Shown: piece by piece, positions 73-30,889 of the stretch
Numbering within the stretch: the first letter of the stretch is position 1
Layout: every line of letters begins with the position of its first letter
Assembly (NCBI GenBank): GCA_016342495.1
Contig: JAEIOG010000036.1
Coordinates: 1-45,468 of the forward strand
Direction: 5' to 3'
Source of the DNA: Phycisphaerae bacterium
GTDB lineage: Bacteria > Planctomycetota > Phycisphaerae > Sedimentisphaerales > SM23-30
DNA length: 45,468 bases
The notes under the pieces: generated by a model
The model's database searches: none
Told to the model about the DNA's origin: nothing
What the model saw: the letters and a program-made list of their open reading frames with translations, nothing else
Position numbers and translations under genes: made by a program

Positions 73-477
73 TCAGTTAACCCATAACTGCCAGATGTCC
101 TTGGTGATCGTTGTTTTATAGATATTTGTGCCAGCTATCTGCTGCCAGGTTGTTCCGCCGAGGTCGGCAATGGACTCAGAACCATCAAAGATAACTTCCT
201 CATCATTGTAATTTGTAAATACAATGTTATCGCCGCTTTCGCCTTCGAAGTTTGTGAGTGAAACCTCCTCGTGGTATGTCCCCCCGCGAATATAGCATGT
301 TTCGCCGGGATCAAGTTTAGTTGCCGCAAATTCAATCGTGGCATATGGAGAGTTCAAAGTTCCGTTGTTGTAGTCACTGCCGTCTGTGGCAACGTAAACG
401 TCTTTCGCAAAAACGCATGGAGATAAATACGCCAATGCTAACAGGACGAAAAACGTTTTCTTTCGGAATCGAATCAT
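73..477 (-). pseudogene. Truncated right-handed beta-helix protein, N-terminal 134 residues
   Basis: This is the 5' remnant of a secreted beta-helix enzyme of the kind found complete at 20450-23650. It has a Sec-type signal (KKTFFVLLALAYLSPCVFA), the start of the beta-helix with RGGTYHEE and the FTNYNDEEVIFDGS strand, and then the family motif DIWQLWV. The frame stops right after WVN, where paralogs continue with a D/G and ARWPN. About 900 residues are missing, so no catalytic function is expected. I chose ATG at 477, behind a GGATG-like ribosome site, over an upstream TTG at 501, because it begins directly at the signal peptide. A copy of the shared 36-bp element and a -10-like box lie upstream, so the gene once had its own promoter. 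The closest relative in the window appears to be the 1066-residue protein, by shared SIADLGG and TNIYKTTI segments. Confidence 0.8.
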
Positions 478-640
478 TTCATCACATCCAAAAAATATCA
501 ATATAAATACTATTGTCTGAATCTAAAATTTTGCAGTTCCGATCGAACGCATAATTGCCCTGAAAACAAGGCCAAATTACAAACAAAATATATTATCACT
601 ATCATACTGAAATCATACCGATTTTGCAATAATAAACAAA

Positions 641-676
641 GCCATAAGAGTGATTATTTTTAGCCTTTTTGCGCAA
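641..676 (-). promoter_or_regulatory. 36-bp shared regulatory element, copy A
   Basis: On the minus strand it begins TTGCGCAAAAAGGC and ends TTATGGC, with two AA(A/T)GGC-like half-sites 22 bp apart. It matches copy B (27332-27367) at 31 of 36 positions and copy C (15461-15496) at 28 of 36. A -10-like GATAAT lies downstream at 597-592, about 115 nt before the ATG at 477. It is probably an activator or repressor site for the truncated beta-helix gene. Identity counts are by eye; the function is inferred. Confidence 0.6.
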
Positions 677-755
677 TGTGGCAAAACGAGGGCAAAAACA
701 ATGCAGGCGGCCTCCTAAGCTTAGTTTGGTATAGAACAGAGAAATTCAATTATAT

Positions 756-784
756 AAAAAACCCCCTAAACGGCGTTTAGAGGG
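756..784 (-). terminator. Rho-independent terminator of the GH29/sulfatase unit
   Basis: On the minus strand CCCTCTAAAC, loop GCC and GTTTAGGGGG form a 10-bp stem with one mismatched pair, followed by six T residues. It begins 9 nt past the stop of the GH29 gene at 794. It closes the long co-directional unit and separates it from the promoter of the truncated gene to the left. Confidence 0.85.
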
Positions 785-793
785 CTCTAAGGG

Positions 794-2287
794 CTAGTTT
801 TCCACTAAGTGAATTTTTAAACAATATGCAAATTCACATGGTTTGTCTTTGGGGAAATTGACTGTAAGGCCGTCTGGGTGAAATTCCCAGTCAATCTTGC
901 CGTCATATCCGAGCAGTTCAACAGACTTGATCTCTTTTATGCGAGTGTTTCCTGGCGATACAAATGACATAACAGCTGGTTTTTTTCCTGGCCAGTCAAG
1001 AACAAAAGCGTAGAGATAATCGCCCTTGGTCGTGTAGCGGATATCCTTGTAAATGAAAGGTGACTCTATAGTCTTGTGAGGCATCTCGGTCTTGCCCTCA
1101 CCGAACATATACCATGGGCGGGTTGCATAGATGCCTTCACCGTTTACATCAAACCATTCACCGACATCTTCGAGGAGTTTGGTTGCAGTATCATCGAGAG
1201 TGCCGTCAGCCAAAATCGGAATATTCAAAAGCATATTACCATTCTTACTAACAATATCAATGATCTTATCGACTACAGCATCAGCTGATGTGTATGGTGT
1301 ATTTTCATTGTATCCCCATGAACCGATCGAGTCATCAGTCTGCCATGGCTCATCAAGAATATGGCTTGCTTTGCCGCGTTCGTAATCGAGCGTTGTTATG
1401 CCATCTGCATAGAGGCCTTGCCATGGACGTTCCTTGACGCACATTACGCCTTCTGGACGTTGGTTATAGAAATGCGAAATCACACCTAAACCAGTACGGC
1501 CTTTATCTTTCCCTCTAAAGGGAACGGCACAGTCGAAGTAAAGAACGTCTGGGTCGTAATCCTCGACCAGCTGTTTGACTCTTTTGGACCAGTTATCACG
1601 CCATACTTTTGGCGGATCAAATGGTGCGCGTGCATGGGTGCTTTGGCCATCATTAGACGGGTAGAGGCCCTTGCCTTTACCCTGAGCGCCATCGTATGGC
1701 ACGCCCTTCAAAGGACCCTGTGTGTCTGACTGGTTGGCAGTGTTTAGCCAGCTGTAGCTGCGTGATAAGTGAGTTGTAACACCAAAACGCAGACCTGCTT
1801 TTTTGGTTGCTTCTTTCCACATGCCGATGAGGTCCTTTTTAGGCCCCTTCTTGACAGCGTTCCATTCATGGTGCTTGGAATCCCAGAGGTCAAAATTGTC
1901 ATGATGGACGGCGCATGGCGAGAAATACTTGGCACCGGAACGTTTAAAGAGAGCGAGTAATGCGTCGGGGTCAAAATTCTCGGCTTTCCACTGCGGGATA
2001 AAATCTACATAACCGTGCTTGGAAGGATGGCCGTAAGTTTCGAGGTGATGCTTATACTCAGGCGTGGTCTCATCATAGAGTTTGCGTGCGTACCATTCGC
2101 CCTGCTTTGCAACAGAATAGGCTCCCCAGTGCAGATAGATACCGAACTTAGCATCACGGAACCAGTCGGGACATTCATAACGCTGAAGTGACTTAACTGT
2201 TGGTTTGAATTTCTTTTTGGCAAGAGACTCGCTGCATCCGACGGTAAGGCACATGCACACTAACAATAATAAACTGACTTTTTTCAT
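794..2287 (-). CDS. Alpha-L-fucosidase-like glycoside hydrolase (GH29), putative lipoprotein
   Basis: This is predicted to remove alpha-L-fucose from an oligosaccharide outside the cytoplasm by the retaining GH29 mechanism. The 497-residue protein starts with a short hydrophobic segment ending LTVGC, a plausible but imperfect lipobox (Cys18). It then has GH29 landmarks: FGIYLHWGAY near residue 50, a VHHDNFDLWDS segment near 130, and VLYFDCA with the presumed nucleophile Asp252. A small C-terminal beta domain ends in CEFAYCLKIHLVEN. It differs from the three divergent GH29 paralogs here in having Cys after the nucleophile where they have Gly, so specificity may differ. AAGGGA lies 5 nt before the ATG. 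It is the last gene of its unit, 38 nt after the previous GH29 and just before a terminator. GH29 membership is firm; the substrate is inferred. Confidence 0.88.
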   Translation of the reverse strand: MKKVSLLLLVCMCLTVGCSESLAKKKFKPTVKSLQRYECPDWFRDAKFGIYLHWGAYSVAKQGEWYARKLYDETTPEYKHHLETYGHPSKHGYVDFIPQWKAENFDPDALLALFKRSGAKYFSPCAVHHDNFDLWDSKHHEWNAVKKGPKKDLIGMWKEATKKAGLRFGVTTHLSRSYSWLNTANQSDTQGPLKGVPYDGAQGKGKGLYPSNDGQSTHARAPFDPPKVWRDNWSKRVKQLVEDYDPDVLYFDCAVPFRGKDKGRTGLGVISHFYNQRPEGVMCVKERPWQGLYADGITTLDYERGKASHILDEPWQTDDSIGSWGYNENTPYTSADAVVDKIIDIVSKNGNMLLNIPILADGTLDDTATKLLEDVGEWFDVNGEGIYATRPWYMFGEGKTEMPHKTIESPFIYKDIRYTTKGDYLYAFVLDWPGKKPAVMSFVSPGNTRIKEIKSVELLGYDGKIDWEFHPDGLTVNFPKDKPCEFAYCLKIHLVEN

Positions 2288-2325
2288 GATCTTCCCTTAA
2301 TTTCTAAATAACAATAAAATTTCTA

Positions 2326-3918
2326 TTAAGTTTGTTTAGGCATTTTCGTTGAACTATTATCATACGGCGGCTTGGCTTTGTCGAGCTTTCCTTTGACCCT
2401 TATGCGAAAAGACAAGGCCCATTCGTTAGGCAAATCATCAGGGAGTTCAATTTCCAAAGCATCTTCTGTCCGCTGCCATTGAACTTTACCAAACCCAAGT
2501 AATTCCACTGACTTAATTTTATTTCTCTTAGAAATACTGGTCGCCTTTGAAAGAGTTTTGACCCTAACAACTTTTGAAGGTGGAACACCGAGTACTGTTG
2601 CATAAAGGCCCTCACCATTACGAGTAAACCTGACATCCGTCCAATCTAACTTCTTTGGGTCCGGCTGAATGCTGCGAGATTTCTTACCGTCCTCATTTAT
2701 TTGGTAATATTCAAGTCGTTCAGTGTGGCCCTCTGCAAAAATCTTCCATGGAACGGTATCATAGATGGCATCACCATTTTGCTCAAGCCATTTACCTATG
2801 CCATCAAGCAAATCAATCTGACCCTGATCAAAAGTCCCATCCGGCCTTGGATTCATAGACAGCAGCAGCCCGCCATTGCGTGCAACGAGATCACAAAGCC
2901 TCACCACTACATCGCGAGGCTTTTTGTATTCGATATTTTTAAACCACGGCCAATCACACCAGCCAATCGCAGAAGGCGTGTCGTCTTCCCATGGCCAATC
3001 GATATAAAGCGGACGGCTGTGTCCATTCTCATAGGAATAAACACCAAAGTCCTTGCCAAAGTTACCCTTATTATGAACACAAACTTCTTTTCCGGCATCT
3101 TGACCCATATTAAAGTAATCGGCAAGTATACGCTCTGTACCATACGCACCGCCACCGCCGTCGAACCAGATAGCATCTGGTTCATAGCGATCGATCACCT
3201 CTTTGGTCAGATCATAGCGAACTTTGCTGAAATGATCCACATCACCTAGAAACCAATAATAGTTTCCGAACTGTGGGTCAAGGATGTCGAAGTTCTCGAC
3301 GCCGTCTGCTTGCTTTAAATCCTTCATTATATTGCTATAATGTTTATAGGTTCGGGCGTGATGGAACGAGGTCATTGTTTTCATGCCACGCTTTTCGATC
3401 TCCGTTAGAATTTCACCAAGAAGATCACGCTTAGGCCCAAGCTTTCCAGCATTAAAATCCATCACATCGCTGTTCCACATAGCATAGCCATCATGGTGAA
3501 TGGCACATATCCCAGCATAACGTGCGCCGGAACGTTTTATCAGATCGGCCCAATATGCAGGATCAAAGTTTTCGACCTTAAACTTCTTAGCAAGGTCCTT
3601 GTAACCATACCCATCTGCGACAGGGCCTATGTATTTTTCAAACTCACGTCGTTTGTCGTTCTTTACATTCGTACTATAAACTCCGCGATAAGAACAAATG
3701 ACATCATTAGCCCAATTCTTGTCTAAGTCCCAGCTGCCGGCTATGGCGTATATCCCCCAGTGGGCGTAGATGCCAAATTTTGCATCCTTAGCCCATTGCG
3801 GAACCTTGTGCTTTCTAAGCGAATCCCAGTTTGCTTCGTAGGCTTCTTGACCTGCACCTTTTGCCAAAGTAGAGCAAACAACAATCACTAATAGTGTCAG
3901 AGCAAGTTTTCGTAACAT
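2326..3918 (-). CDS. Alpha-L-fucosidase-like glycoside hydrolase (GH29)
   Basis: A 530-residue exported GH29 protein with a Sec signal (LALTLLVIVVCSTLAKG). The barrel begins at WAKDAKFGIYAHWGIY and continues with AIHHDGYAMWNSDV, GPKRDLLGE and DAIWFDGGGG, where Asp253 is the presumed nucleophile. LLLSMNPRPDGTF marks the last barrel strands, followed by a C-terminal beta domain and a short hydrophilic tail (KPPYDNSSTKMPKQT). It belongs to the same divergent GH29 subgroup as the genes at 10496 and 29244, which share the GPKRD block. The ATG lies 9 nt after the double-sulfatase gene, and its AGGA ribosome site overlaps that gene's stop codon, so translation is probably coupled. Desulfation and fucose removal by neighbouring products would fit. 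The linkage specificity cannot be read from the sequence. Confidence 0.9.
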   Translation of the reverse strand: MLRKLALTLLVIVVCSTLAKGAGQEAYEANWDSLRKHKVPQWAKDAKFGIYAHWGIYAIAGSWDLDKNWANDVICSYRGVYSTNVKNDKRREFEKYIGPVADGYGYKDLAKKFKVENFDPAYWADLIKRSGARYAGICAIHHDGYAMWNSDVMDFNAGKLGPKRDLLGEILTEIEKRGMKTMTSFHHARTYKHYSNIMKDLKQADGVENFDILDPQFGNYYWFLGDVDHFSKVRYDLTKEVIDRYEPDAIWFDGGGGAYGTERILADYFNMGQDAGKEVCVHNKGNFGKDFGVYSYENGHSRPLYIDWPWEDDTPSAIGWCDWPWFKNIEYKKPRDVVVRLCDLVARNGGLLLSMNPRPDGTFDQGQIDLLDGIGKWLEQNGDAIYDTVPWKIFAEGHTERLEYYQINEDGKKSRSIQPDPKKLDWTDVRFTRNGEGLYATVLGVPPSKVVRVKTLSKATSISKRNKIKSVELLGFGKVQWQRTEDALEIELPDDLPNEWALSFRIRVKGKLDKAKPPYDNSSTKMPKQT

Positions 3919-3927
3919 TCTAAGTTC

Positions 3928-6900
3928 CTATTTAATACGTTTCTGTTTTTTCTTTTCTTTATCGCTGCCTTTTTTCTTGCTGTAAGATTCCCAGTATTTA
4001 ACCGACTCATGCGAAATTTCATTTGCACGGGCATGGGTATCTTCCCAGTGCTCATCGATAATATTCTGTATTGCGGAGTTACCAGTGTCGCTGTCGCCAA
4101 CTTCCTTACGCAGTTCGATCAGCTGTTGCTTTAAATCCTTTACAATCTTCTTATATTCAGCCTTGGCGTAAACATTTGTCGTTTCCAGCGGATCATTTTT
4201 GATATCATAAAGCTCCCAGCCCGGCGGAGTTTGATCTTCAGTTCCTTTTTTTGATAGACCATAGAAGAAAATCAATTTATAGTCTTTCGTCCGAATGCCA
4301 AAATGAGCCGGGTTGTGGTGATGGTTCATGTGCAGCCAATACCGGTAATAACTCCCCTTCCGCCAATCAGCAGGTTCTTTACCTGTTTCCAGTATCTCCC
4401 GAAAACTTTCTCCCTGCATCTGGCTGGGCGTATTAGCCCCTGCGAATTCCAGAAGCGTTGGAGCAAAATCGGTATTGTTTACTATAGCATCACTTCTCGC
4501 CGCTGCATTGATCGACTTTGGATAACGAATAATAAACGGCATACGCAAAGCTTCCTCATACATCCAGCGTTTGTCACCAAAATCATGCTCGCCAAGAAAC
4601 ATCCCCTGATCGGAAGTGTAAACAATTAACGTATTATCAAGTTCACCTTCGCTCTCGAGATAATCAAGCAAACGCTTAATATTGTCATCAACACCCCTTA
4701 CGCACCTCAGATAACTTTTCAAATAATCCTGATAAGCGATTGTCAATGCTTCATCGTCATCTAGATCATCAATTTTCAACCTCGCCTTGGCAAGGTAGCT
4801 GCGATGATGATTTCTCCTGCCAATCGATGAGCCAATAGCAAAATCCAACTCGTTATTATGCCCACGGGTGGCGATCGATCCAAAACCATCTCTATCTCGC
4901 ATTGTCGGCGGTTCTGGAATTTCAACATCTGCGTAAAGTTCTTTGTAACGCTCGGCAAAATCCCACGGTCCATGTGGAGCTTTAAACTGAATCATTAAAA
5001 AGAATGGTTTGGTCTTATCGCGACCCTTGAGCCATTTAATCGAAGAATCTGCAATAATATCTGACGAGTACCCTTGCTCGTTAACCTGTACCTCTAGGAC
5101 CTGGGCATTCTTTCTTTCATAAAACTCCGGATTATGATACTTGCCCTGACTCTTGAGTACCTTGTAATAATTAAATGCTTCGGGCTGAGTTCCCAAATGC
5201 CATTTACCAATAACAGCTGTCTCGTACCCAGCCTTGGCAAGTTCTATCGGCAAAGTTTGCTTGTCTTTTTCAACCTTACCACCAAGTCCTGTAACGCCGG
5301 TAATATGGCTGTATTGCCCCGTCAGAATCGTCGCTCTACTCGGACTGCAAATAGCGTTTGTGCAGAAGCAGTTCTCCATAAGCATACCTTCGCTGGCGAG
5401 TTTATCGATTGTCGGCGTTGGATTCAGTTTTGCAAGTCTGCTGCCGTAGGCTCCGATAGCTGTTGCCGCGTGGTCGTCGGACATTATATAAAGAATATTC
5501 GGCTGTTTGTTTGCTGGAGATTTGCCATTAAATTCAACAGTAACAAAGTATGCGATGCTGTCTTTTCCATCACCGATCAGCGACGTCACAAGGTCAGTAT
5601 CGCCTTTTTCCAGATCGAGCGTAAAACTGGCGTGTGTGTCTTCTGGGGTTACCGCTTTTTCTACGGTCTTTCCGCCAATAGCCAGCCGTACTTTTTCAAT
5701 TGCTAAATCATTTTCATTTAACTTTTTCCCGCCGATGCCAAAAGGCAGCTTCATGTAAAGGGGGTACCGAGACAGAGTAATTGTGTAGCTGCCCTTAGTC
5801 GCAACTGTCACCTTGTACGGCCCATGTGCCTGAAGCAGGTCTTTAGGGCTTGCCTGGGTAAACGCCTGCGGCCCCTTGCCCTCTCGATACATGTCCTGGC
5901 TGGTCAGTTCCACCTTCGTAGCTCGACTGTCGCCGATGATAAAACGCACAGGCTCTTTGATCAATTCAAGGCCTTCATCGCGATGAGCAACAAAGAACTC
6001 ACGCATCTGCTTTACAACCTCAGGATTATCAGCAGCAACATCGTTATGTTGTATCCTGTCCTTTTCAGCATCATACAAGGCAACATCAGCTAACAGCCGC
6101 CAGTTCTTCCATATCACACACGTCTTTTTCACTTCATCAAAGTTTTTCGGATTAAAGTAATGGAAGAACAAAGGCCTGTCATCTTTTTTCGGATTAAGCG
6201 GTCTTTTCAAATAACGCTTGAACGAGCGACCTATGACATTCGCTCCCTCGGGCTGATCCAATCCGCATATATCAAGCAGCGTCGGATAAACATCCATTAC
6301 TGAGATCAGCGTATTATTGTCCGTCGGAGTTTTTATCTTTGAGCCGGATAACTTTAGGAACGAGAACACACGGTGTCCACCTTCTTCCATAGAACCTTTA
6401 TCTCCAGTTTGGCCCATATTCCAGACATCCAGCACATTAGATCTTGCCGCTCCTTGCGCGCCATCATCAGTAGTAAATAGGATAATGGTGTTTTTATCGA
6501 GGCCATCTTCTTTCAGAATCGCAGTCAACCTGCCGAAGTTCTCATCGAGATTGTCGACCATCCCGTAGTATATCGCCAGTTTTGGATCAACACCATTTTT
6601 AATGTGTCGCTGCGTGTATTCATCGGCTACGTTGAGGGGCAGATGCGTTACGTTAGGTGCAAGGTAGATAAAGAACGGCTCGTCTTTGTTTTCTTTTATG
6701 AACCGCATTGTCTCTGTAAAGAAAATATCCGTGCAGTAGCCTTCGTATTTTTTTGGCACACCATTATGATAGTATGTGTCGTCGAAGTAATCATTATCCC
6801 AGTAGTCCGCGATCTGCCCGACAGCTCCGCAGCGAAGTCCAACGACTTCATCAAAACCCTGATCCTGCGGACGCATTGGCCAGTTGTCACCGAGATGCCA

Positions 6901-7323
6901 CTTGCCGAACTGTCCAGTTGAGTAACCATTGGTTTTGAATACCTCGGCAATAGTAATGTTATCGCCTCGCATCATCGTTCGTCCAAGACTTGTACGCCAG
7001 GCACCTGTGTGCTGGGCGTACTTTCCAGTCATTAGTGCCGCACGTGATGCGGTGCACATGGGCATCTGGTGGAAGTTAGTAAGGCGAATCGCTCCGCTGG
7101 CAAAGTTGTCAATATGAGGAGTCCTGACGAGTGGGTTACCCTGGAAACCAATGTCATTACCCTGATCATCTGTCATAATGACGATAACATTTGGCCTGGA
7201 CTTACCTTTTCTGGCAGCATTAAGATCAGAGCAAAAAAGGCCTGTCACTATCAGCATTATTAATGCAGATAGTATCATGTTTTTGCGAAGCACTGCCGAA
7301 AAAGATCGTCCATTATTCTTCAT
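3928..7323 (-). CDS. Two-domain sulfatase fusion (S1 family, both sites intact)
   Basis: A 1131-residue secreted protein with two complete sulfatase modules. After a Sec-type signal (ILSALIMLIVTGLF), module 1 begins at RPNVIVIMTDDQ and has the formylglycine motif CTASR at Cys90, then GKWHLGD and ITTDDGAQG-like metal-site segments. A beta-rich spacer, about residues 480-605, resembles C-terminal domains appended to other sulfatases. Module 2 begins at QPNILYIMSDDHA near 612, has CSPSR at Cys659, FKAPHGPW and TSDQGMFLGEH, and ends in a Lys-rich tail (KEKKKQKRIK). No signal peptide lies at the junction, so this is a real fusion, unlike the ORF at 40597-43533. Its ATG overlaps the preceding stop codon by one base (TAATG), giving coupled translation. 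Two different sulfate positions on one glycan would be plausible targets. Confidence 0.9.
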   Translation of the reverse strand: MKNNGRSFSAVLRKNMILSALIMLIVTGLFCSDLNAARKGKSRPNVIVIMTDDQGNDIGFQGNPLVRTPHIDNFASGAIRLTNFHQMPMCTASRAALMTGKYAQHTGAWRTSLGRTMMRGDNITIAEVFKTNGYSTGQFGKWHLGDNWPMRPQDQGFDEVVGLRCGAVGQIADYWDNDYFDDTYYHNGVPKKYEGYCTDIFFTETMRFIKENKDEPFFIYLAPNVTHLPLNVADEYTQRHIKNGVDPKLAIYYGMVDNLDENFGRLTAILKEDGLDKNTIILFTTDDGAQGAARSNVLDVWNMGQTGDKGSMEEGGHRVFSFLKLSGSKIKTPTDNNTLISVMDVYPTLLDICGLDQPEGANVIGRSFKRYLKRPLNPKKDDRPLFFHYFNPKNFDEVKKTCVIWKNWRLLADVALYDAEKDRIQHNDVAADNPEVVKQMREFFVAHRDEGLELIKEPVRFIIGDSRATKVELTSQDMYREGKGPQAFTQASPKDLLQAHGPYKVTVATKGSYTITLSRYPLYMKLPFGIGGKKLNENDLAIEKVRLAIGGKTVEKAVTPEDTHASFTLDLEKGDTDLVTSLIGDGKDSIAYFVTVEFNGKSPANKQPNILYIMSDDHAATAIGAYGSRLAKLNPTPTIDKLASEGMLMENCFCTNAICSPSRATILTGQYSHITGVTGLGGKVEKDKQTLPIELAKAGYETAVIGKWHLGTQPEAFNYYKVLKSQGKYHNPEFYERKNAQVLEVQVNEQGYSSDIIADSSIKWLKGRDKTKPFFLMIQFKAPHGPWDFAERYKELYADVEIPEPPTMRDRDGFGSIATRGHNNELDFAIGSSIGRRNHHRSYLAKARLKIDDLDDDEALTIAYQDYLKSYLRCVRGVDDNIKRLLDYLESEGELDNTLIVYTSDQGMFLGEHDFGDKRWMYEEALRMPFIIRYPKSINAAARSDAIVNNTDFAPTLLEFAGANTPSQMQGESFREILETGKEPADWRKGSYYRYWLHMNHHHNPAHFGIRTKDYKLIFFYGLSKKGTEDQTPPGWELYDIKNDPLETTNVYAKAEYKKIVKDLKQQLIELRKEVGDSDTGNSAIQNIIDEHWEDTHARANEISHESVKYWESYSKKKGSDKEKKKQKRIK

Positions 7324-8885
7324 TATTTCTCTCTCTTTCTTGCCTTCTTTCTTGCCCTTTCCTTTTTGTCTTTCTTGTCTTTTTTGCCTCTCTCATCAGG
7401 CGAGGATAGAGGACGGTTTTTCATTTTATGCCACGGGCCCATCGGCTCGTAGGAATTTCCCTCAGGATAATCGTTACCGTAGTAACTGTTTTCGCACGAA
7501 CGTATAAACTCGATCGCCTCTTTCCGCATCGCCGCAGCAATAGCTGGTTTCTCTTTGATAATATTGACATCCTCACCCCGGTTACCAAAGAAATCAAATA
7601 GCATATCGCCTTCGCTTTCTTCCGTGTCAAAGTTTGTATAGTACCGGTATTTACCCTTTAATAAACTAAGCTCAGGCGCTTGTGATTCACGGAATCTAAA
7701 AGGAATAGTTTTTTTTCGTTCAGAGCGTTTTCCTGTAACTATGTCAATAATGTTTTCGCCATCAATTGGGCGCTTATCCGGCACGCTGGCTCCTGCGGCA
7801 GCGAAGACTGTCGGAAGGTAATCAAGCGTTGAAAGAGGGGTTTTAATCGTTTGTCCAGATTTAACCTTCCCCGGCCAGACCAGAAATGCAGGCACACAAA
7901 CCCCGCCGTTGAATAGCTGGGCCTTTTTACCTCTCATCCCATCCGTGCTTCCATAACCACCATCACGGGTATGCTTAGCCGGTCCGTTATCAGAACAATA
8001 CCAGAACATAGTATTATCCCAGACGCCCAGTTCTTTCAGTTTTGCATCGAGCCTGCCGACCTGATCATCCAGTGCGGTTATCGATCCGTAGTAGTTTATC
8101 TTTTTGTCGTCAAGGCCGCGATCTTCATACATCTTCCTGTACTTTGGTCCTGCCTGGATAGGTGTATGCGGAGCATGTGACCATATCACAGTAAAGAAAG
8201 GCTTATCATTTTCGGCTGCCGTTTCGATAAACGGTATGACTCTATCCATGATGATTCGCGTATCGCACCCGGTAAGCTTTTCCGTAACTCGCTGACCATC
8301 TTCCCAGTAAGGGTTGTCTGTTGTCTCTGCCTCAGAGCCACCCGGCCCGTACGGATCCCATGTACTAACCGCGTGGTGAGTAACAAAATGTTTGTCATAG
8401 CCGAACCATTCAGGCCTGGCAAGGTGTTTGTCACTTTCGCCTCCGCCTTTACCCGTGTAATCAGGATGCGGCGAGCCAAGATGCCATTTCCCGAAGTGGC
8501 CGGTAGCGTAACCTTTTTCTTGCAATGCATTCGGTATCGTATATTCTTCTCTCGGCAAACGCCCCGTGTTAGCTGTCCAGATGCCGTAGCGGAAATAGTG
8601 CCTGCCCGTCAGGACCGTTGCCCTCGTTGGTGAACATACCGGACATCCCGAAAAGAAATGGTAAAGATTAGCGCCTTTTGCTGCAAGCCTGTCAAGATTT
8701 GGCGTGACAATATCATCGTTGCCGTTAAAGCCAACGTCTCCCCAACCCTGATCATCTGTCATAAATAATATAACATTGGGCCTTCGGGATTTCTTTGACT
8801 TTACTAAAACAGAACTTCCGCCAGTTGAGATACCTGCAACAAAAACACCGCAGGCTTTTAAAAATGTACGTCTATCAGTTTTCAT
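7323..8885 (-). CDS. Tat-exported sulfatase (S1 family)
   Basis: A 520-residue sulfatase predicted to hydrolyse sulfate esters of a glycan after export. A twin-arginine signal is clear at the N-terminus (DRRTFLKACGVF). The catalytic domain starts PNVILFMTDDQGWGD and has CSPTR with the formylglycine Cys84, followed by GKWHLGSPHPD, WSHAPHTPIQ and YCSDNGPAKH, the usual metal and substrate site blocks. The last 25 or so residues are very rich in Lys and Arg (KKDKKDKKERARKKARKREK), a tail not needed for the fold. It sits between another sulfatase and the fused double sulfatase, overlapping the latter by one base. The organisation DDQGWGDVGFNGND resembles arylsulfatase A/B-type subfamilies. The exact sulfate position is unknown. 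Confidence 0.92.
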   Translation of the reverse strand: MKTDRRTFLKACGVFVAGISTGGSSVLVKSKKSRRPNVILFMTDDQGWGDVGFNGNDDIVTPNLDRLAAKGANLYHFFSGCPVCSPTRATVLTGRHYFRYGIWTANTGRLPREEYTIPNALQEKGYATGHFGKWHLGSPHPDYTGKGGGESDKHLARPEWFGYDKHFVTHHAVSTWDPYGPGGSEAETTDNPYWEDGQRVTEKLTGCDTRIIMDRVIPFIETAAENDKPFFTVIWSHAPHTPIQAGPKYRKMYEDRGLDDKKINYYGSITALDDQVGRLDAKLKELGVWDNTMFWYCSDNGPAKHTRDGGYGSTDGMRGKKAQLFNGGVCVPAFLVWPGKVKSGQTIKTPLSTLDYLPTVFAAAGASVPDKRPIDGENIIDIVTGKRSERKKTIPFRFRESQAPELSLLKGKYRYYTNFDTEESEGDMLFDFFGNRGEDVNIIKEKPAIAAAMRKEAIEFIRSCENSYYGNDYPEGNSYEPMGPWHKMKNRPLSSPDERGKKDKKDKKERARKKARKREK

Positions 8886-8905
8886 AAGTTATATTCCAAC
8901 AAGTC

Positions 8906-10474: not shown

Positions 10475-10495
10475 CACAGGTCTTTCTAAGTAGAT

Positions 10496-12058: not shown

Positions 12059-12072
12059 AGTAAACCTCTCTA

Positions 12073-13698: not shown

Positions 13699-13724
13699 AA
13701 AAACTCCTTAACACATTTCCATTA

Positions 13725-15317: not shown

Positions 15318-15460
15318 CACAAACTTCTCCGCAAAAGTGATTCAATTTCTTGCTGCCAATTTATTAACAGAGTTCGCCACCGCATAGAACAAAAGCAATA
15401 ATACAATCAGATCAACAAATCTGGAGAATTTATAATATTACAAATAAGGCGTTTTCGAAA

Positions 15461-15496
15461 GCCTTTTTGGAGTTTATTTTTAGCCATTTTGCGCAA
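15461..15496 (-). promoter_or_regulatory. 36-bp shared regulatory element, copy C
   Basis: On the minus strand it begins TTGCGCAAAATGGC and ends CAAAAAGGC, with half-sites AAAATGGC and AAAAAGGC 22 bp apart. It matches copy A at 28 of 36 positions. A -10-like TAATAT lies at 15440-15435, about 20 nt downstream, and the ATG of the unit-2 sulfatase follows about 118 nt later. The distal half-site also belongs to a small hairpin (AAGGC, loop, GCCTT) that could weakly terminate the preceding unit. Confidence 0.55.
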
Positions 15497-15538
15497 AGCA
15501 ACCTAATAAACACATCAAAATCGAATGTCCTTAAGAAA

Positions 15539-17161: not shown

Positions 17162-17192
17162 CCAATTCTAAAATAGAAACACATTTAATGTA

Positions 17193-20100: not shown

Positions 20101-20414
20101 CAACCTGCATCATCAATCTGCATGGTTCCTGCTATAATAACTTCTTCGTCATTGTAATTGGTAAAAGTGATCGGATTACTGCTTGTACCCTTAAGACTGC
20201 TTTTTGTCACAGCCTCATGATATTTACCCCCGCGAATATACACCGTATCACCAGAACTAACCGAATCAATAGCATGCTGAATAGTCCTCCATGGTTTACT
20301 GGATGTTCCATTCTTCGTATCATCGCCGCTTCTGGAAACGTAATAATTAGCAGCGTTTACAAAAGAGCCGGATAAGACCATAGATAAAACAAACATGCTG
20401 ATTATATTTTTCAT
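17193..20414 (-). CDS. Modular right-handed beta-helix protein with DNRLRE, Ig-like and dockerin-like modules
   Basis: A 1073-residue exported protein, probably a polysaccharide-active enzyme acting outside the cell. A Sec signal (MFVLSMVLSGSFVNA) is followed by a DUF1565-type start (NYYVSRSGDDTKNG) and a right-handed parallel beta-helix to about residue 640. Inside lies the family motif DIWQLFVD...ARWPN (about 118-138). Next come an FN3-like module (about 675-755, LMWLEGKDAVEHKVYFG), a DNRLRE domain of the kind related to CBM96 (about 762-915), a cadherin/Ig-like domain (about 922-1010) and two dockerin-like calcium loops (about 1015-1073). I cannot assign a CAZy family; the layout recalls GH141 but without enough matching residues. 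It is third of four genes in unit 3, 35 nt behind a paralog. Loop 1 (PDIGGDGSINLLD) lacks one usual acidic ligand. Confidence 0.85.
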   Translation of the reverse strand: MKNIISMFVLSMVLSGSFVNAANYYVSRSGDDTKNGTSSKPWRTIQHAIDSVSSGDTVYIRGGKYHEAVTKSSLKGTSSNPITFTNYNDEEVIIAGTMQIDDAGWSLYSGNIYRKVLTEDIWQLFVDDDMMTVARWPNVGQDWHVPDTSSGFDPTPGSYWDMDSTQGRLADNSTWGHFYNDERYESLVDLNISVEGAMLVGYRCLVSGNDVFTEQITSHVAGSDNFTHTTVNFPVGSTVSQAASGARYYIEADLGLLDAPGEWFYDKDTKELYVWFKDSGSPAGKDIEGKNKNFILDLTSCEYLNFTNIKLFAGAFDLSDTYDTAFDNCKFIYPSYGRRMLKVITPGPGYVIHDGAAPYNRTVGSRDPANLTWIDCEFANYEGVGLYIRTNGGNLVENCYFHNGQILQVVYGAVSDHKGSGTILRRNTFHTLGLNNATKNGPDGILEYNHIYNMHFDGDFSACQTNQSFQERTEHRYSWIHDCKGRNGVRFDGDAAGIRGKVHHIVSMHNMRGFRLKGDQHQIYNLTALNNTPKSDINIAFEKFYGYDPPECMEYECRILGRRGSDPYRGNENSIVRNIAGNVIDDWPLVAPDNIAVWHGNDIGKDVEDQLRDAVNLDFRPKAGSELIDAGVVVPGFTDIYNGSAPDIGAYEYGDTDYWIPGCKFDKASTPIPPDNTSGVKTDADLMWLEGKDAVEHKVYFGTESGNLPLVSTQTNNIYNPGTLDENTEYFWRVDTETANGTITGDEWSFTLVIPEPETEIALFYAIGDTYVDSNYPSTNFGASTEVELRTPDTGLTTRHGFMKFNPQVVGEIVAATLRLYSLNVLSGGAEIFTVADNSWDEMQMVWNPLSANAPPAMSALPIGSLAPSYGWDDEDVTSWYTENGVKSIGLVRGPKDSNRRVQSRESAYPPELVIEYIPTGPVNHAPYFQSTSFASANAYSLVEYSADISSEARDPDGDVITFSKSAGPGWLIVNADGTLAGTPQLSNVGVSYFTMRVMDSSGAYDEGSMTIEVLAGPDIGGDGSINLLDFVVLSQNWEKPCVEPDWCNGADVNRSGVVSLNDLRLLSESWLD

Positions 20415-20449
20415 GAATTCACCGTTTCATAAACCATTTATTAATTGAT

Positions 20450-23400
20450 CTATTCAAGCCAACTAGTTGCGAATCTTTGCAAATCTGCCAACTCAACTTT
20501 CCCACTGTAGTCAAGATCAGCACCTTCGCACCATGATTGTGCAACGCAGGTTTTTTCCCAGTTCCTTGAAACCACTTCAAGGTCTTCAAGATTAACATCA
20601 CCGTCACCATTGATGTCGGCGCTGCCGTAAGCTACTGGTTCAGATGCCGTTGCTACAGCAATATCAGACTGGTAAGAAAATTGATCTGCGACATCGACAG
20701 CCTTTACTATATACTCATAAAGCAGGTCGTAAAGCATAGTAGTGTCAACATACTCAGAAGCAGTGATCAGTCCCGGATGAAGCTGCACGAAGTTGTCGTC
20801 GGGATTCTGACGTCGCAGAACCTGGTAACCCTGAATATCTGTCTCGGTATTGTCATCCCAGTCAAGCGATATCTGCCCGGCACTGCCTACGGCACTAAGA
20901 TTTGCCGGCGGATCGGGTATTGGGTCATCACCACCAGAAGAAGTATAGGCCAGCGTAAGATATGGTGGATTTTCATTTTCTCTGGAACTGATACCACGGT
21001 AGGAGGTTGTAAGCGACCTGTCAATACCCAACGAAACCAGGCCATTACCGCTAACCGCATTTAATACATTAAATCCTCTATAAGAAAGACTGTAAATATC
21101 CTGCTGATCGAGCAGTACACCGTCAATCGACGGAGCATTATTATACGTCAAAGTCAGTTCATTCCATGATGTATCGCTCATCGAATAAACCTGTACATTA
21201 CCGCTAGTTGAAGCACCGGTCGCATACAGGTTAAGATTTGCACTAACGATCGGGCCTGGCACACTAACGTTAAACTTGATATAACCCTCACGCTCATTAC
21301 CGTCTTCGTGCGTAGTAATGGAAAGTTTTGTCTCGGTACCATAGTTAGAATCCGGATTATCGTTTCTGGTATACGTATCGGCAACAGGATAGATATCAAC
21401 ATAAAAAGTATCCAACGGCTGCTGTGCGGTAAACGACCATTCATCACCTGTGATTGTCCCGTTGGAAGTAACTGTATCGATACGCCAGAAATACATCTGC
21501 CCTTCGGTAAGACCGTTTGCATTGGGATCAAAAATATTATTAGTCTGATTGCCTTTAAACTCCAGGCTGCCCGATGCTTTCCCGAAGTAGACATCATGCG
21601 AATCTGCGTCTTTGCCCTCCAGCCACATCAGGTCACAATCCGGCTTTGCATTCAGCGAACCATTGAGCGGGATAGGAGTGCTTGCCTTATCATCCTTACG
21701 CCCCGGGATCCAGTAATTAGTATCACCATATTCATAAGCCCCGATATCCGGTGCCGAGCCAATATATCCATCTGTTATCGGTGAATAAACTACCCCGGCA
21801 TCGACCAGACCGCTGGTTGCTGTCGGACGAAAATCCCAATTTACCGCATCACGAATGCGATCTGCTGCCCTGTCGTTAGCTCCAGTAGAGTCAACAAACC
21901 CGTTCCAATTACTACTATTGTTACCAGTAAGCTGTACGTATGAATGTGTATCCGAAGATATTCCGTCTGCGAGATTGTTATACACATCGCTATTCTGATT
22001 TTTCGGATCAGTTAATGGATTTGCATCTGTCATTTTGATCCCCGGCTCGAGCGGGTCGTGCAAAGCCACAGACGTATTGTTTATAACTTTGTGGTAATCG
22101 CCTTTGATATTCATAGAAGATGGAGTGTTCCATGAAACAAAGTGATGGTCACTGCCATTTACCCCTTCGTCGCCATCCCAGCGGCAGCCGGTCTTATATG
22201 CTTGATGATGCCAATTGTGATGACGCACAGTTCCATCACTGCCGCCGCCTGGACCGTCACCACCGGCACACTGCATAGCCGTTCCATCCATTTGGAAATA
22301 ACCGAAATACATAAAATTACACCACTCAATATCACATGCTGTATGCTTAACCATCACCTTTGATCCGTTGGTATGGAAGGTGCTCCGTTTAACAACGCTT
22401 TCCTTGTTACTGTTAGCCATCAGGATCATCTGCGACATGCCGGTAAAACTGAAGTGATGGAACGAGCAGTTATCCACTTCGTTACCGAAGCCTGTCTTCA
22501 TATATACCATGCCGTCACTGTATTCAAATTTGCAGTTGGCAATGTTGTAATAAGTGCTGCCCGATAACCCTTGAAAAAAGAATGACCCCGTCTCCGGCGG
22601 CTGAGTAGCCGCTTCTGTCGGCTCACCCTGATATCCATATTCGCCCAGCATTCGCCGATACCATGTAGGGTATGAAAAATTGCAATCTTCGACAGTAACG
22701 TGGCTGCCCTTGGGGAAATTCAACGCACATCCAAAGAAGTCGATTCCCTTAATAGTTAGATAACTTGCATCGTCAATATCAAACGCATAGGAAATCGTCT
22801 TTCCACGAACGTCACGTCCCTGCGGACTCTGCCCGTCTTCGCACCAAAGCCGAACCTCGCCGGTATCTTTATTATAATACCATTCGCCCGGCATATCCAA
22901 AGCCGAATCCGCTTCAATAAGAAAATGCCCCTGCCCCTTGTCGTGCGGATTTTGAACAGGCGTATATGTCAAATTGCTGGTCCCTGCGGTATGCGAAATA
23001 ATTGGCCGGGCAAACTGAGATTCAGAATGAAAGTTAAGCACGATTGATCCACCAGCAAAACTAACATTCTCAGCAGCCATGTCATGATAAAGCGTATCGT
23101 TTATCAGGTCACCGGTTGCATTCCAGGAATTGTTCATATGCCCCCATGTCCCCCATATATCCCACCAGCTCCCTTGGACCGGCGTATAGCCGTCAGCCTT
23201 GAACTGGATATCGTCGCATGGATGACCAACGGTAACATTCGGCCAGCGAGCAACAACAGCCATCCGTCCATCAACCCAAAGTTGCCAGACATCTTTGTTG
23301 ATCGTCGTTTTGTATATATTTGTATCAGCCTCCTGCGTCCATGTTCCCCCGCCAAGATCAGCCAGTGACTGCGACCCGTCAATTACAACCTCCTCGTTGT

Positions 23401-23650
23401 TATAATTTGTAATTGTTATCTCGTCGCCATTGTTGCCATGGAGATTAGCTGCCTTGATCTCTTCGTGGTATGTCCCGCCGCGAACATAGACCGTATCCCC
23501 AGCCCCAACCGTGTTTACCGCATGCTGAATAGTCCTCCACGGTTTGTTTATCGCGCCATTTCTGCTATCGTCGCCATTGGTTGAGACGTAGTAATTCCCC
23601 GCCTGCAACGAACCAACAATTAAAACCACAAATACAGCAACTCTTTTCAT
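20450..23650 (-). CDS. Modular right-handed beta-helix protein with DNRLRE, FN3 and dockerin-like modules
   Basis: A 1066-residue secreted paralog of its neighbours. After a short Sec signal (KRVAVFVVLIVGSLQAG) comes the beta-helix with RGGTYHEE, DVWQLWVD...ARWPN (about 118-138) and many Asn/His-rich rungs to about 640. An FN3-like module (about 665-745), a DNRLRE domain (about 747-905), a true FN3 domain (about 908-1000, LDWDDNTETDIQGYQVLRR) and a dockerin-like pair complete it. Both calcium loops, DINGDGDVNLED and DLDYSGKVELAD, keep their ligands, and a Cys pair (TCVAQSWC) lies between them. The frame extends to a TTG at 23683, but ATG at 23650 has GGAG 10 nt upstream and starts the signal directly. 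It is the nearest paralog of the truncated gene at 73-477. The catalytic type is unknown. Confidence 0.85.
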   Translation of the reverse strand: MKRVAVFVVLIVGSLQAGNYYVSTNGDDSRNGAINKPWRTIQHAVNTVGAGDTVYVRGGTYHEEIKAANLHGNNGDEITITNYNNEEVVIDGSQSLADLGGGTWTQEADTNIYKTTINKDVWQLWVDGRMAVVARWPNVTVGHPCDDIQFKADGYTPVQGSWWDIWGTWGHMNNSWNATGDLINDTLYHDMAAENVSFAGGSIVLNFHSESQFARPIISHTAGTSNLTYTPVQNPHDKGQGHFLIEADSALDMPGEWYYNKDTGEVRLWCEDGQSPQGRDVRGKTISYAFDIDDASYLTIKGIDFFGCALNFPKGSHVTVEDCNFSYPTWYRRMLGEYGYQGEPTEAATQPPETGSFFFQGLSGSTYYNIANCKFEYSDGMVYMKTGFGNEVDNCSFHHFSFTGMSQMILMANSNKESVVKRSTFHTNGSKVMVKHTACDIEWCNFMYFGYFQMDGTAMQCAGGDGPGGGSDGTVRHHNWHHQAYKTGCRWDGDEGVNGSDHHFVSWNTPSSMNIKGDYHKVINNTSVALHDPLEPGIKMTDANPLTDPKNQNSDVYNNLADGISSDTHSYVQLTGNNSSNWNGFVDSTGANDRAADRIRDAVNWDFRPTATSGLVDAGVVYSPITDGYIGSAPDIGAYEYGDTNYWIPGRKDDKASTPIPLNGSLNAKPDCDLMWLEGKDADSHDVYFGKASGSLEFKGNQTNNIFDPNANGLTEGQMYFWRIDTVTSNGTITGDEWSFTAQQPLDTFYVDIYPVADTYTRNDNPDSNYGTETKLSITTHEDGNEREGYIKFNVSVPGPIVSANLNLYATGASTSGNVQVYSMSDTSWNELTLTYNNAPSIDGVLLDQQDIYSLSYRGFNVLNAVSGNGLVSLGIDRSLTTSYRGISSRENENPPYLTLAYTSSGGDDPIPDPPANLSAVGSAGQISLDWDDNTETDIQGYQVLRRQNPDDNFVQLHPGLITASEYVDTTMLYDLLYEYIVKAVDVADQFSYQSDIAVATASEPVAYGSADINGDGDVNLEDLEVVSRNWEKTCVAQSWCEGADLDYSGKVELADLQRFATSWLE

Positions 23651-23703
23651 AGTACCCAAGCTCCGTTTTAAGTATAGAAACAATTATGGCATTTAATGCA
23701 AAA

Positions 23704-26700
23704 TTACTCAAGCCACTTTGACGCCAAATACTGTAGATCAAACACTGTAACCTTTCCGCTAAAATTCAGATCCGCACCTTCGCACCATAACGGTTCCCCG
23801 CAATCAGCCTGCCAGTATTTTGAAACAACTCTAAGATCATGCATGTCCACCCTGCCATTGTTATTTATGTCGGCATCACCGAACACGCCAGCTTCAACAG
23901 TGATACTCATATCAGCCACATCATACGCTCCCTGATCATCCGTTACGCGTATTGTCCACATATTTTCGCCAACATGCCCCGGCATGGGCGTTCCAGATGT
24001 CGTCCCGTCAGCAGCCATAGTCAGCCAGGCAGGACCTGCATCTATTGAAAACGTAATCGGATCACCATCAAGGTCAAAACCCTGATCGCCAATAGTATCG
24101 GCAAATTCAATACCTGCAACAGCCCCTGGCTCGTGAATCACTGTAGTATCAAAGTATGGTGGCCGATTCGCAGGCGGCGGCGTCCCGGAACTGCCAGTAT
24201 AGAATGACCACAGCTGGCCCCTTATAGTCACATTAGCAGTAATCGTATCGACTCTCCAGTAATAATAGGTATTCGACCATAGCGAACCCGGGTTGAAAAT
24301 ATTATTTGCTTGCGTACCATAGTCAGTAAGATCCCCCGGATCGGGCCCAAAAAATACTCTGTGGGAAACGGCATCTCTACCTTCAAGCCACATCAGATCA
24401 GCTGAGACTTTCGCAGTGATAGTACCATCCGGCGGGATAGGACAACTTGCGTCCTTGAATTTGCAACCCGGGATCCAGTAGTTCGTATCGCCGTACTCGT
24501 ACGCTCCAATATCCGGTGCATAACTAATATAACCATCGGTAAAACCAGGCACATGCGTCCCGGTATTTACAAGATCAGACCCTGCTTTTGGTCGGAAATC
24601 CAGATTGTCAGGGTCCCGCAGCTGACTCTCTAAAGTCTTACCTTCACCGATCCCATACCAAATACTATCCTGATCGATCGTCGGTATTGGCCATGGATTG
24701 ATGAAATATGCGGCAATATTTCTGACAATCGAATTAATATTACCCGCCTGGTTGCCGAACTCATCGTAATATTTTTGCAGTGCAACATTGCAGTCATCTT
24801 TAGGCCCATTATAAAGCCCAACAAGATTGTATATCTGGTGCTGGTCACCCTTGAGACGGAAACCCCTGTTATTCCGCATCGAAACGCAGTGATGAATCAC
24901 TCCATTGGTACCGCCCGGGTCGCCATCAAAACGAAAACCGTTACGGTTATAAGCGTTGTAAACCCAGTTATAACGACAGACAGTTGAGTCTTGAGTTCCC
25001 GACGGCATCTGATGGCCAGAGCTGTCACCTTTGAACATGAAATTATACGAACGGTTATACTCAAGCAGGCAGTTAGCACCGTTTTTAGTCGCATTACTTC
25101 GGCCTATAGTGTGGAACGTATTGCGGCGATAGGTTGTATCAGAACCCTTCTTGTCAGAGACAACTCCAAACGTCGTTGGTCCCCAGCCGGAGTTATGGAA
25201 ATAGTTATTCTCGATTAAATTGCCGCTTGTCCGCAAAGCCAATGCACGCCCTTCAGAAAAAGCAAATTCGCAATTCGTCCAGCTAAGGTTCGCAGGGTAA
25301 ACGGCACTGTCTGTTGCGTTCATGACCTGATTAATACCTGTTTCGCCAAGAACTGTTTTTGTCAAGCTTGGATAGAGAAATTTGCATTCGTCAAAATTAA
25401 CATCCTTTGTGCCGGTAAGATGAAATGCTCCGCCAAAAAGAGTGATTCCAGAGAAATTAACGTATTGACAATTATCAAGGGCTAGAACAGTATCTGTATT
25501 TCTCGCCTCAATGAAATGGCCGTCAGGCGTTGAGCTGTCAAAGAACCAGACATAAAGCAGATCGGAATTTTTGTCATAGAACCATTCACCCGGACTGTCA
25601 AGACAATCAAGATCACCCTCAATGTAGTATCGCCCGTCATCGATAGGCTTTTTCACCGGAGAGTCCGCCGGATACGAATTGGTTGTATGCGTAAAATGAC
25701 TCTGACCGGCTAAGTGCGATGTGATCGTCTCTCTTACAATGTCATTACCAGTAACAAGGCACCTGAAAATATTGAGTACCCCGCCCTGAAAGCTTTTGCC
25801 TTCACTGGAAAGGGAGTTATTGTTTTCTTTGTTATATAAATGCCCCCAGGTACTTGCAGTATCGAGATGTCCCCAAGTAGTTTCCTGGTCCCAGAAGCTC
25901 CCCGGGGTTGGATTATGCCCTGACGTATCGTCCGGCTCGTCCCAGTTCTTAGTAATATTAGGCCATCTCGCAATGATCATACTTTTATCGTCAACAAACA
26001 GCTGCCAGATATCCTGCGAAACAGTTGTCTTGTAGACATTACCGCTATAGACAGACCACTGGGAAGTTACCGGCATTGTACCGGCAATAATTACTTCCTC
26101 ATTCAAATAACATCTAATGGTAATCGGGTCATCTGATGTCCCATCCAAATTGTTAATCGTTACTGATTGATGATACTTACCGCCGCGAACATTGATTATA
26201 TCACCGGCAACCGCCGAGTCTACCGCATGCTGGATAGTAGCCCACGGCTGCGAATATGTCCCATTATTACTGTCACTGCCGCCCAAAGCTACAAAGTAGC
26301 CTTCAACCAATGCGTCGAGCACTTCAATTTCAATAGTATCTGTATTAGTTGCAGTTGGACTATTGCTGCTGTCATCGGCCAAAAGCTGAAGTTCATAGAT
26401 TCCTGCTGCGGAAAATTCTGCCGTTGGATTAACTATGGATGTGCTGCTGAAATTTACGTTTCCTGGTCCGCTTAATTTCGACCATGTAACTACAAGAGGC
26501 CCGGGTCCGTCCCCGCCGTCATCGGCACTGCCTGCAAGCTGAACTCGACCGCTGTTTGTATTGATATCTGATGCTTGATCAGGGCCGGCGTAAACGTTCG
26601 GCGAAATATTTGAACCTGAACTGCCGCCTGTTATTATTATCAGTTCCGGAATACCGTCAGAATCCTCTTTTGATCGCCAGCGTGCTTTATCCATAGAAAT

Positions 26701-27153
26701 ATCTGTCAAAGCAAAACTAAATATTCCATCGGCTGTTATAGAACCGGTTATATCAAAATCATACCATGTATCACTTTCAAGGGAACCAAGCGTTCTAAGT
26801 GCAGTGCCCGGTGTCGGGGCGGTGCCGTCAATAGCAGATTCTTCTATCCAGGAATTACTTGCAACACTATGAACAGTAGTTCCAAGCGGACAATGTCCCG
26901 CGGTCCTGAGACGAAGAACCACAGATTCGACATTATCGCCATTGATCCCTGAAACCTGAAACTTAAGCAAGCTATAGGTATCGCCTTTGACATTTAAGTA
27001 GTCAATGTCACCTTGAGGAGTTGTACTGCCAGAGGGAATATAAGTGTCATCGGTAGGCTCAAATTGCAATTGACCAGCTAGAGAGATTGACGAAATAAGC
27101 ACCAACACCAATAAAAACACTAAGCTTACTTTGAAGTAATTATTGCTTTTCAT
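23704..27153 (-). CDS. Modular right-handed beta-helix protein with N-terminal DNRLRE and PKD-like modules
   Basis: At 1149 residues this is the largest of the modular beta-helix proteins and the first gene of unit 3. Its order differs from its paralogs: signal peptide (VSLVFLLVLVLISSISLAG), a DNRLRE domain at the N-terminus (about 26-183), a PKD-like domain (about 185-280, ending EIEVLDA), then the beta-helix (about 281-890) with DIWQLFVD...ARWPN at about 379-399. An FN3-like module (about 909-990), a cadherin/Ig-like domain (about 996-1085) and a dockerin-like pair (about 1090-1149, DINNNGRVDMHD and DLNFSGKVTVFD) follow. I use ATG at 27153 rather than the track-extending TTG at 27201; GGGA lies 5 nt before it and the signal begins directly after. 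Shared element copy B and a TATAAT box lie upstream. Enzyme activity is unassigned. Confidence 0.85.
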   Translation of the reverse strand: MKSNNYFKVSLVFLLVLVLISSISLAGQLQFEPTDDTYIPSGSTTPQGDIDYLNVKGDTYSLLKFQVSGINGDNVESVVLRLRTAGHCPLGTTVHSVASNSWIEESAIDGTAPTPGTALRTLGSLESDTWYDFDITGSITADGIFSFALTDISMDKARWRSKEDSDGIPELIIITGGSSGSNISPNVYAGPDQASDINTNSGRVQLAGSADDGGDGPGPLVVTWSKLSGPGNVNFSSTSIVNPTAEFSAAGIYELQLLADDSSNSPTATNTDTIEIEVLDALVEGYFVALGGSDSNNGTYSQPWATIQHAVDSAVAGDIINVRGGKYHQSVTINNLDGTSDDPITIRCYLNEEVIIAGTMPVTSQWSVYSGNVYKTTVSQDIWQLFVDDKSMIIARWPNITKNWDEPDDTSGHNPTPGSFWDQETTWGHLDTASTWGHLYNKENNNSLSSEGKSFQGGVLNIFRCLVTGNDIVRETITSHLAGQSHFTHTTNSYPADSPVKKPIDDGRYYIEGDLDCLDSPGEWFYDKNSDLLYVWFFDSSTPDGHFIEARNTDTVLALDNCQYVNFSGITLFGGAFHLTGTKDVNFDECKFLYPSLTKTVLGETGINQVMNATDSAVYPANLSWTNCEFAFSEGRALALRTSGNLIENNYFHNSGWGPTTFGVVSDKKGSDTTYRRNTFHTIGRSNATKNGANCLLEYNRSYNFMFKGDSSGHQMPSGTQDSTVCRYNWVYNAYNRNGFRFDGDPGGTNGVIHHCVSMRNNRGFRLKGDQHQIYNLVGLYNGPKDDCNVALQKYYDEFGNQAGNINSIVRNIAAYFINPWPIPTIDQDSIWYGIGEGKTLESQLRDPDNLDFRPKAGSDLVNTGTHVPGFTDGYISYAPDIGAYEYGDTNYWIPGCKFKDASCPIPPDGTITAKVSADLMWLEGRDAVSHRVFFGPDPGDLTDYGTQANNIFNPGSLWSNTYYYWRVDTITANVTIRGQLWSFYTGSSGTPPPANRPPYFDTTVIHEPGAVAGIEFADTIGDQGFDLDGDPITFSIDAGPAWLTMAADGTTSGTPMPGHVGENMWTIRVTDDQGAYDVADMSITVEAGVFGDADINNNGRVDMHDLRVVSKYWQADCGEPLWCEGADLNFSGKVTVFDLQYLASKWLE

Positions 27154-27303
27154 CACAGTCCCAATGTTCCTTACAAATTGTATTGCACGGCAATCGTGCA
27201 AAAAGTAACGAGATCGATAAAAATGGCATCAAAGCCAATCAGGTCAAAGATGTTGTGGTTTTGATATTTTAACGCCTGAAAGGCTATAATACAATACTAA
27301 TAT

Positions 27304-27309
27304 ATTATA
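27304..27309 (-). promoter_or_regulatory. Predicted -10 box TATAAT of unit 3
   Basis: On the minus strand TAGCTATAATATATT contains a perfect TATAAT 22 nt downstream of shared element copy B. The equivalent sequence after copy A is TAGTGATAATATATT. No good -35 hexamer is present, which fits dependence on an activator bound to the element. The ATG at 27153 would be about 150 nt downstream. Confidence 0.5.
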
Positions 27310-27331
27310 GCTACTATCCGATACCAGAAAA

Positions 27332-27367
27332 GCCATTAAGGTGATTATCTTTCGCCTTTTTGCGCAA
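27332..27367 (-). promoter_or_regulatory. 36-bp shared regulatory element, copy B
   Basis: On the minus strand it begins TTGCGCAAAAAGGC, continues GAAAGATAATCACC and ends TTAATGGC. It differs from copy A at five of 36 positions. The two half-sites, AAAAAGGC and TTAATGGC, are 22 bp apart, about two helical turns, as expected for tandem binding of one protein on one face. It precedes the giant beta-helix genes of unit 3. Confidence 0.6.
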
Positions 27368-29209: not shown

Positions 29210-29243
29210 TTTTAGCTTTCTTTACTAAAAGATTTCAACCGAA

Positions 29244-30806: not shown

Positions 30807-30889
30807 TTACAATTTCCTAAAAAAAATTACATAACGTTAACCTTTAATAATCCCGGTAATTTCGTTTCGGGCTTTTGTTTTCATTTTTA

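Follow-up and report, generated by a model that had tools for sequence, protein, structure and literature searches.

A putative operator of a XylR-type regulator in a fucoidan-type polysaccharide locus of Planctomycetota

The closest described systems are those of E. coli XylR and Vibrio XylRA, in which the operators are direct repeats located near the promoter (PMC12125979). Vibrio XylRA, which has the same domain architecture as the candidate regulator described below, is an experimentally tested example: from two AT-rich direct repeats in front of xylan-locus genes, it activates these genes in response to xylose (PMC12125979). In the open-access literature, we found no described regulator-operator pair for the sulfated-polysaccharide loci of Planctomycetota. 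The 36-bp element analyzed here is likewise a direct-repeat element near a promoter, and it resembles the system of the beta-1,3-xylan locus of Vibrio in that several promoters of one polysaccharide locus appear to be served by two direct repeats. However, XylRA is encoded inside its own locus and senses xylose, whereas the candidate regulator presented here is located on another contig. The predicted targets also differ from those of E. coli XylR, being sulfatase, fucosidase, CBM96/beta-helix and prepilin-type genes rather than xylose genes, and so does the half-site core, which is GCGCAAAAWGGC in the present element. The kind of switch, a XylR/AraC-family activator with a direct-repeat operator, is already known; the present case of it is well supported and has a new set of targets.

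The window, by which we mean the whole stretch of DNA that was analyzed, comprises the entire 45,468-bp contig C203 of a genome of 5.42 Mb in 221 contigs. Relatives of its proteins indicate a Phycisphaerae-like member of Planctomycetota. All of its major genes are located on the minus strand and only 4.5% of it is non-coding. The products include sulfatases, GH29 fucosidases, CBM96/beta-helix proteins, a GH141-like protein and a sodium:solute symporter (Pfam families include Sulfatase, GH29, CBM96 and GH141_M). Sulfatases and alpha-L-fucosidases are co-located, as expected of a fucoidan-type polysaccharide utilization locus, and by its gene content the window is a sulfated-fucan (fucoidan-type) locus, with a putative substrate deduced from the genes alone. 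Two of the window genes, at 3928-7323 and 40597-43533, encode double (fused) sulfatases.

The preliminary description of this DNA had proposed that the element heads separate units. This is correct for three units, but the window contains at least four (Table 1), and no copy was found before the largest run as far as the contig extends past position 45166. The unit downstream of copy A is cut by the contig end. The gene in it runs colinear with the N-terminal ~135 residues of the beta-helix proteins before reaching a stop codon 72 bp from the contig end; it is probably a truncated gene, the other option being an error at the assembly edge.

Table 1. Locations of the element copies, the predicted -10 boxes and the associated genes. 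Positions lacking a prefix refer to the window.
Feature	Position	Strand	Remarks
Copy A	641..676	minus	distal half-site 663-676 (TTGCGCAAAAAGGC); proximal half-site 641-654 (...TTATGGC)
Copy B	15461..15496	minus	distal half-site 15483-15496 (TTGCGCAAAATGGC); proximal half-site 15461-15474 (...CAAAAAGGC)
Copy C	27332..27367	minus	distal half-site 27354-27367 (TTGCGCAAAAAGGC); proximal half-site 27332-27345 (...TTAATGGC)
Copy on contig C206	C206:817-852		TTGCGCAAAAAGGCTAGAAAATCGTTCGATATTGGC
Predicted -10 box of copy A	612..617	minus	TATGAT; 23 nt downstream of copy A
Predicted -10 box of copy B	15432..15437	minus	TATTAT; 23 nt downstream of copy B
Predicted -10 box of copy C	27304..27309	minus	TATAAT; 22 nt downstream of copy C
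Gene behind copy A	73..477	minus	beta-helix protein, first 134 codons; 52% identity to 20450-23683
Gene run behind copy B	794..15318	minus	8 genes, sulfatases and GH29 fucosidases
Gene run behind copy C	15539..27153	minus	three CBM96/beta-helix proteins and one sulfatase
Remaining run, the largest	27770..45166	minus	sulfatases, GH29, sodium:solute symporter, GH141, beta-helix
XylR-like regulator, 381 aa	C206:1779-2924	minus	Peripla_BP_3 and HTH_18
Prepilin-type (N_methyl) gene behind the C206 copy	C206:1008-1772 (L020 715-1479)		
Prepilin-type (N_methyl) gene next behind an element	L181 15231-16019		
Prepilin-type (N_methyl) gene next behind an element	L181 5134-5922		
Prepilin-type (N_methyl) gene next behind an element	L183 7245-8072		
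Prepilin-type (N_methyl) gene next behind an element	L192 4179-5033		
Prepilin-type (N_methyl) gene next behind an element	L193 6538-7404		

Inspection of the three window copies agreed with the preliminary description in placing all of them on one strand and in non-coding gaps (478-793, 15319-15538 and 27154-27769), with pairwise identities of 28, 31 and 28 of 36 positions, and in a half-site distance of 22 bp. Their coding-strand sequences are, as listed, TTGCGCAAAAAGGCTAAAAATAATCACTCTTATGGC, TTGCGCAAAATGGCTAAAAATAAACTCCAAAAAGGC and TTGCGCAAAAAGGCGAAAGATAATCACCTTAATGGC, and on the minus strand the element can be written as TTGCGCAAAAWGGC-N19-GGC. The distal block TTGCGCAAAAWGGC is almost invariant. 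It is followed 22 bp further on by a weaker repeat, poorly conserved in sequence, which ends with GGC and is succeeded by TTT; the distance from GGC to GGC is 22 bp in all three window copies and in the copy on contig C206. A comparison of the distal and proximal 12-mers gave 6.2 matching positions out of 12, as compared to 3.0 +/- 0.45 for shuffled sequences. The two half-sites are direct rather than inverted and are separated by about two helical turns, as expected of a XylR-type (AraC-family) activator operator. A scan of the window identified 3 matches, whereas 0 were expected from 100 dinucleotide shuffles.

Analysis of the flanking sequences confirmed that a TATAAT-like box is present near each copy, but not at the distances of 43, 22 and 20 nt previously given for copies A, B and C (Table 1). 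The value for copy A referred to the wrong box. With all three -10 boxes located 22–23 nt behind the element, the suggested displacement of copy A by two helical turns is not borne out. Across 22 sites from this genome and its relatives, the best -10 offset, counted from the element, was nearly always 22–25 nt, and the summed -10 score of these sites was 122, as compared to 28 +/- 5.3 for shuffled flanks and a maximum of 52.4 among 2000 shuffles. With a 17-bp spacer, the -35 sequence would begin at the TTT directly behind the element, so that the proximal half-site adjoins or overlaps the -35 position, again as expected of an operator of this type. The -35 sequences are poor (TTTGTT, TTTCGA, and CTTTTC or TTTTCT). 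A poor -35 sequence beside a well-formed -10 box is the layout of a promoter whose activator touches the -35 region.

The preliminary description had proposed a genome-wide scan for the motif and had called the element locus-specific. We had also considered it to be confined to the window, which was rejected when a looser spacer uncovered the copy on C206. In the 5.4-Mb genome, this was the single match outside the three window copies, with no near-misses and 0 matches to the reversed-pattern control. A profile search of the same genome identified 4 sites at E-values of 1e-9 to 1e-11 and nothing else better than 2e-4. The element is thus restricted to the locus except for one further promoter, that of the prepilin-type gene on C206. 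Among the 397 genomes of the class, matches were obtained in this genome (4 sites) and in G104 (8 sites) only, with 0 in the control. Matches to the pattern with 3 mismatches occur in many members of the order; they resemble chance matches and were excluded unless they adjoined a XylR-like gene.

Contig C206, which is 3,010 bp long, contains the fourth copy, the prepilin-type gene behind it and a regulator gene. This agrees with the earlier expectation that the regulator is encoded outside the window, the candidate being a XylR-like protein of the AraC family. Residues 6-375 of the regulator align with E. coli XylR (PDB 4fe4 and 4fe7) at an E-value of 4.6e-55, showing full-length homology and the same architecture, a LacI/periplasmic-binding-like sensor combined with an AraC-type double HTH for DNA binding. 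The C206 copy heads the prepilin-type gene, which is a neighbor of the regulator gene and convergent to it; the upstream sequence available for the regulator gene itself, 86 bp, contains no copy. XylR-like proteins number at least 12 in this genome, and HTH_18 proteins at least 24. Of the XylR-like genes, that of the C206 regulator is the single one accompanied by a strong copy on its contig, and the upstream regions of the others score at most 8.2. In L020, which includes the prepilin-type gene of C206, a C-terminal fragment that by visual inspection resembles glucose-6-phosphate isomerase is located at 160-470, immediately after an inverted GGGGACAGTCACCTATT repeat. The isomerase-like gene was perhaps disrupted by the insertion of a repeat.

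The association between the element and the regulator was also observed in relatives. Among 161 genomes of the order, the closest relative of the C206 regulator is G118:C127:3940-5076, with 64% identity. A strong copy (score 42.6) is located in the divergent gap between this gene and a sulfatase gene, pointing to the latter, and on other contigs of G118 more copies precede genes for sulfatases and CBM96/beta-helix proteins. In G084, G117, G108 and G112, a copy is likewise located between a XylR-like gene and its divergent neighbor. In all six cases, including C206 and G118, the regulator linked to the motif combines a LacI/PBP-like sensor with an AraC-type HTH. A search for weak matches with a sequence profile of 20 sites gave, among the matches listed, 117 outside the training set, of which 16 are located upstream of XylR-like genes at distances of 78–331 bp, with 350 bp as the limit, and 5 downstream; all 16 upstream matches face away from the gene. 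The fixed -10 distance, the near-confinement of the element to the locus, the C206 regulator, the sulfatase and beta-helix genes headed by the element in relatives and the links between regulator and element there support, as far as sequences can tell, the suggestion of an operator whose protein contacts one DNA face.

Based on the half-site and -10 spacing, the restriction of the element within the genome, the family of the regulator and its link to the element in relatives, all of which are read from the sequences, we consider it very likely that the element is the operator of an activator-dependent promoter, bound by a dimer of the XylR-type C206 protein in response to a fucoidan-type sugar signal; we infer the binding, activation rather than repression, the C206 protein as the cognate one and the ligand. 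The dimer would bind the direct half-sites, TTGCGCAAAAWGGC and the weaker ...NGGC, on one DNA face and 22 bp apart. Located at the poor -35 region, the bound protein would recruit RNA polymerase to the -10 box 22–25 nt further on. Such a layout is named class II in other AraC-family activators. The signal is likely to be a sugar released from a fucoidan-type polysaccharide, and the regulator together with this signal would switch on three of the units of the locus and the prepilin-type gene beside the regulator.

An unlikely, but the least improbable, alternative is that the element is a XylR-type operator recognized not by the C206 protein but by another of the many XylR-like or AraC-family proteins of this genome. 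The sites of XylR relatives have a CGCAAAATGG core in common, so recognition could overlap between XylR-like proteins, and G104 has sites in a genome where a XylR-type gene was not found. However, as described above, the C206 regulator is alone among the XylR-like genes of its genome in having a strong copy on its contig, its closest relative in G118 adjoins a strong copy, and the upstream regions of the other XylR-like genes have low scores, all of which points to the C206 protein.

Activation by the C206 protein is also favored over repression, in which the regulator would block the promoter and the sugar would lift the block. The LacI-type sensor domain belongs to a family rich in repressors and the proximal half-site adjoins the promoter, which would suit this model. 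Yet the combination of a well-formed -10 box with a -35 sequence that is TTTNNN-like rather than TTGACA suits an activator, and characterised XylR proteins of the same architecture activate (PMC12125979). We therefore regard a repressor operator as improbable. That the element is itself the core promoter of an alternative sigma factor is highly improbable: two conserved blocks at a fixed spacing could be taken for a -35 and a -10 sequence, but a separate sigma-70-type -10 box is located at a fixed distance behind them, the blocks are alike and form direct repeats 22 bp apart, the genome holds just four copies, and throughout the order the motif accompanies XylR-like genes. Finally, the copies can hardly be what is left of a mobile or duplicated segment and owe their similarity to recent descent instead of function; the neighboring genes are paralogous, but identity does not extend beyond the 36-bp element, the TTT after it and the -10 box, in otherwise unrelated flanks, the same columns are conserved in other genera, and the genes downstream of the copies differ.

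The operator reading can also be followed into G104, a distant relative from another family, in which two contigs carry a similar locus and the element occurs nine times. These copies precede sulfatase, CBM96/beta-helix and prepilin-type genes. Downstream of them are, among others, a prepilin-sulfatase run, a CBM96/beta-helix run homologous to that behind copy C (64% and 61% identity) and a counterpart of the sulfatase at 43553-45166 (72%). The identity to the window proteins is 82% for GH29 and 72–81% for the sulfatases. A weight matrix trained only on the sites of G104 and G118 was run on the window, and its top three ranks were exactly the three copies with 38.3, 36.5 and 32.2 bits, followed by 12.1 bits for the next match. 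Hence, the element and the genes have been kept together across families, by descent or transfer. Neither a XylR nor a HTH_18 search found a XylR-type regulator in G104 (best E-value 5.8e-6), its HTH_18 proteins being unlike XylR in length and sequence; since this assembly is 91% complete, the gene may simply be missing from it. Along L262 1-13000, L183 and L184 (contig C118 of G104), the homologous fucan locus has 72–82% protein identity. This seems high for a distance between families, so the fucan locus was possibly transferred horizontally between them.

The gene next behind the element is of the prepilin type at 6 of the 21 strong sites, in several genomes, as compared to a background of approximately 1–3% of genes. 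The binomial probability is 5e-7 to 3e-5 at background rates of 1.5–3%, a rough estimate because the next gene was assigned by eye from simple ORF calls. This recurrence suggests that the predicted regulon includes surface-fibre-like proteins that are co-controlled with polysaccharide breakdown, and it links polymer breakdown with pilus-like proteins. The prepilin genes behind the element fit the observation that dextran is bound to pili-like fibres of Planctomycetes (PMC5394234). A broader proposal, which we offer tentatively and with rather more doubt than confidence, is that the polysaccharide loci of the order are chiefly controlled by an expanded family of XylR-like activators, all with variants of the CGCAAAATGG direct repeat as their operator, and that these activators co-control substrate-specific prepilin-type proteins with a part in polymer capture or uptake. 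With a named candidate regulator and a defined operator, the regulon is directly testable, and it predicts which genes act together.

A xyl locus in the same genome provides a further comparison. On contig C76 (L264 1106-5488), a XylR-like gene is divergent from xylA and a xylulokinase-like gene, and the gap between them holds CGCAAAATGGATGTAAATATACGCAAAATGGAT, in which CGCAAAATGGAT occurs twice at a distance of 21 bp, forming a perfect direct repeat of 12 bp; TATAAA follows 21 nt behind the repeats. Both systems thus have a XylR-like gene, a divergent target and two direct repeats with a CGCAAAATGG core. The C76 repeats are identical and 21 bp apart, whereas those of the window element are 22 bp apart, the distal one starting with TTG and the proximal one being degenerate. 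At the sequence level, the element of the window resembles a specialised form of the C76 xyl operator. On contig C136 (L261 4531-8999), another XylR-like regulator gene is divergent from a ribulokinase gene, with a related motif, TGTCGTAAACTGGTG...ACACAAAAAGGGT, in the gap, and the genes after the ribulokinase gene seem to make up the remainder of an arabinose operon.
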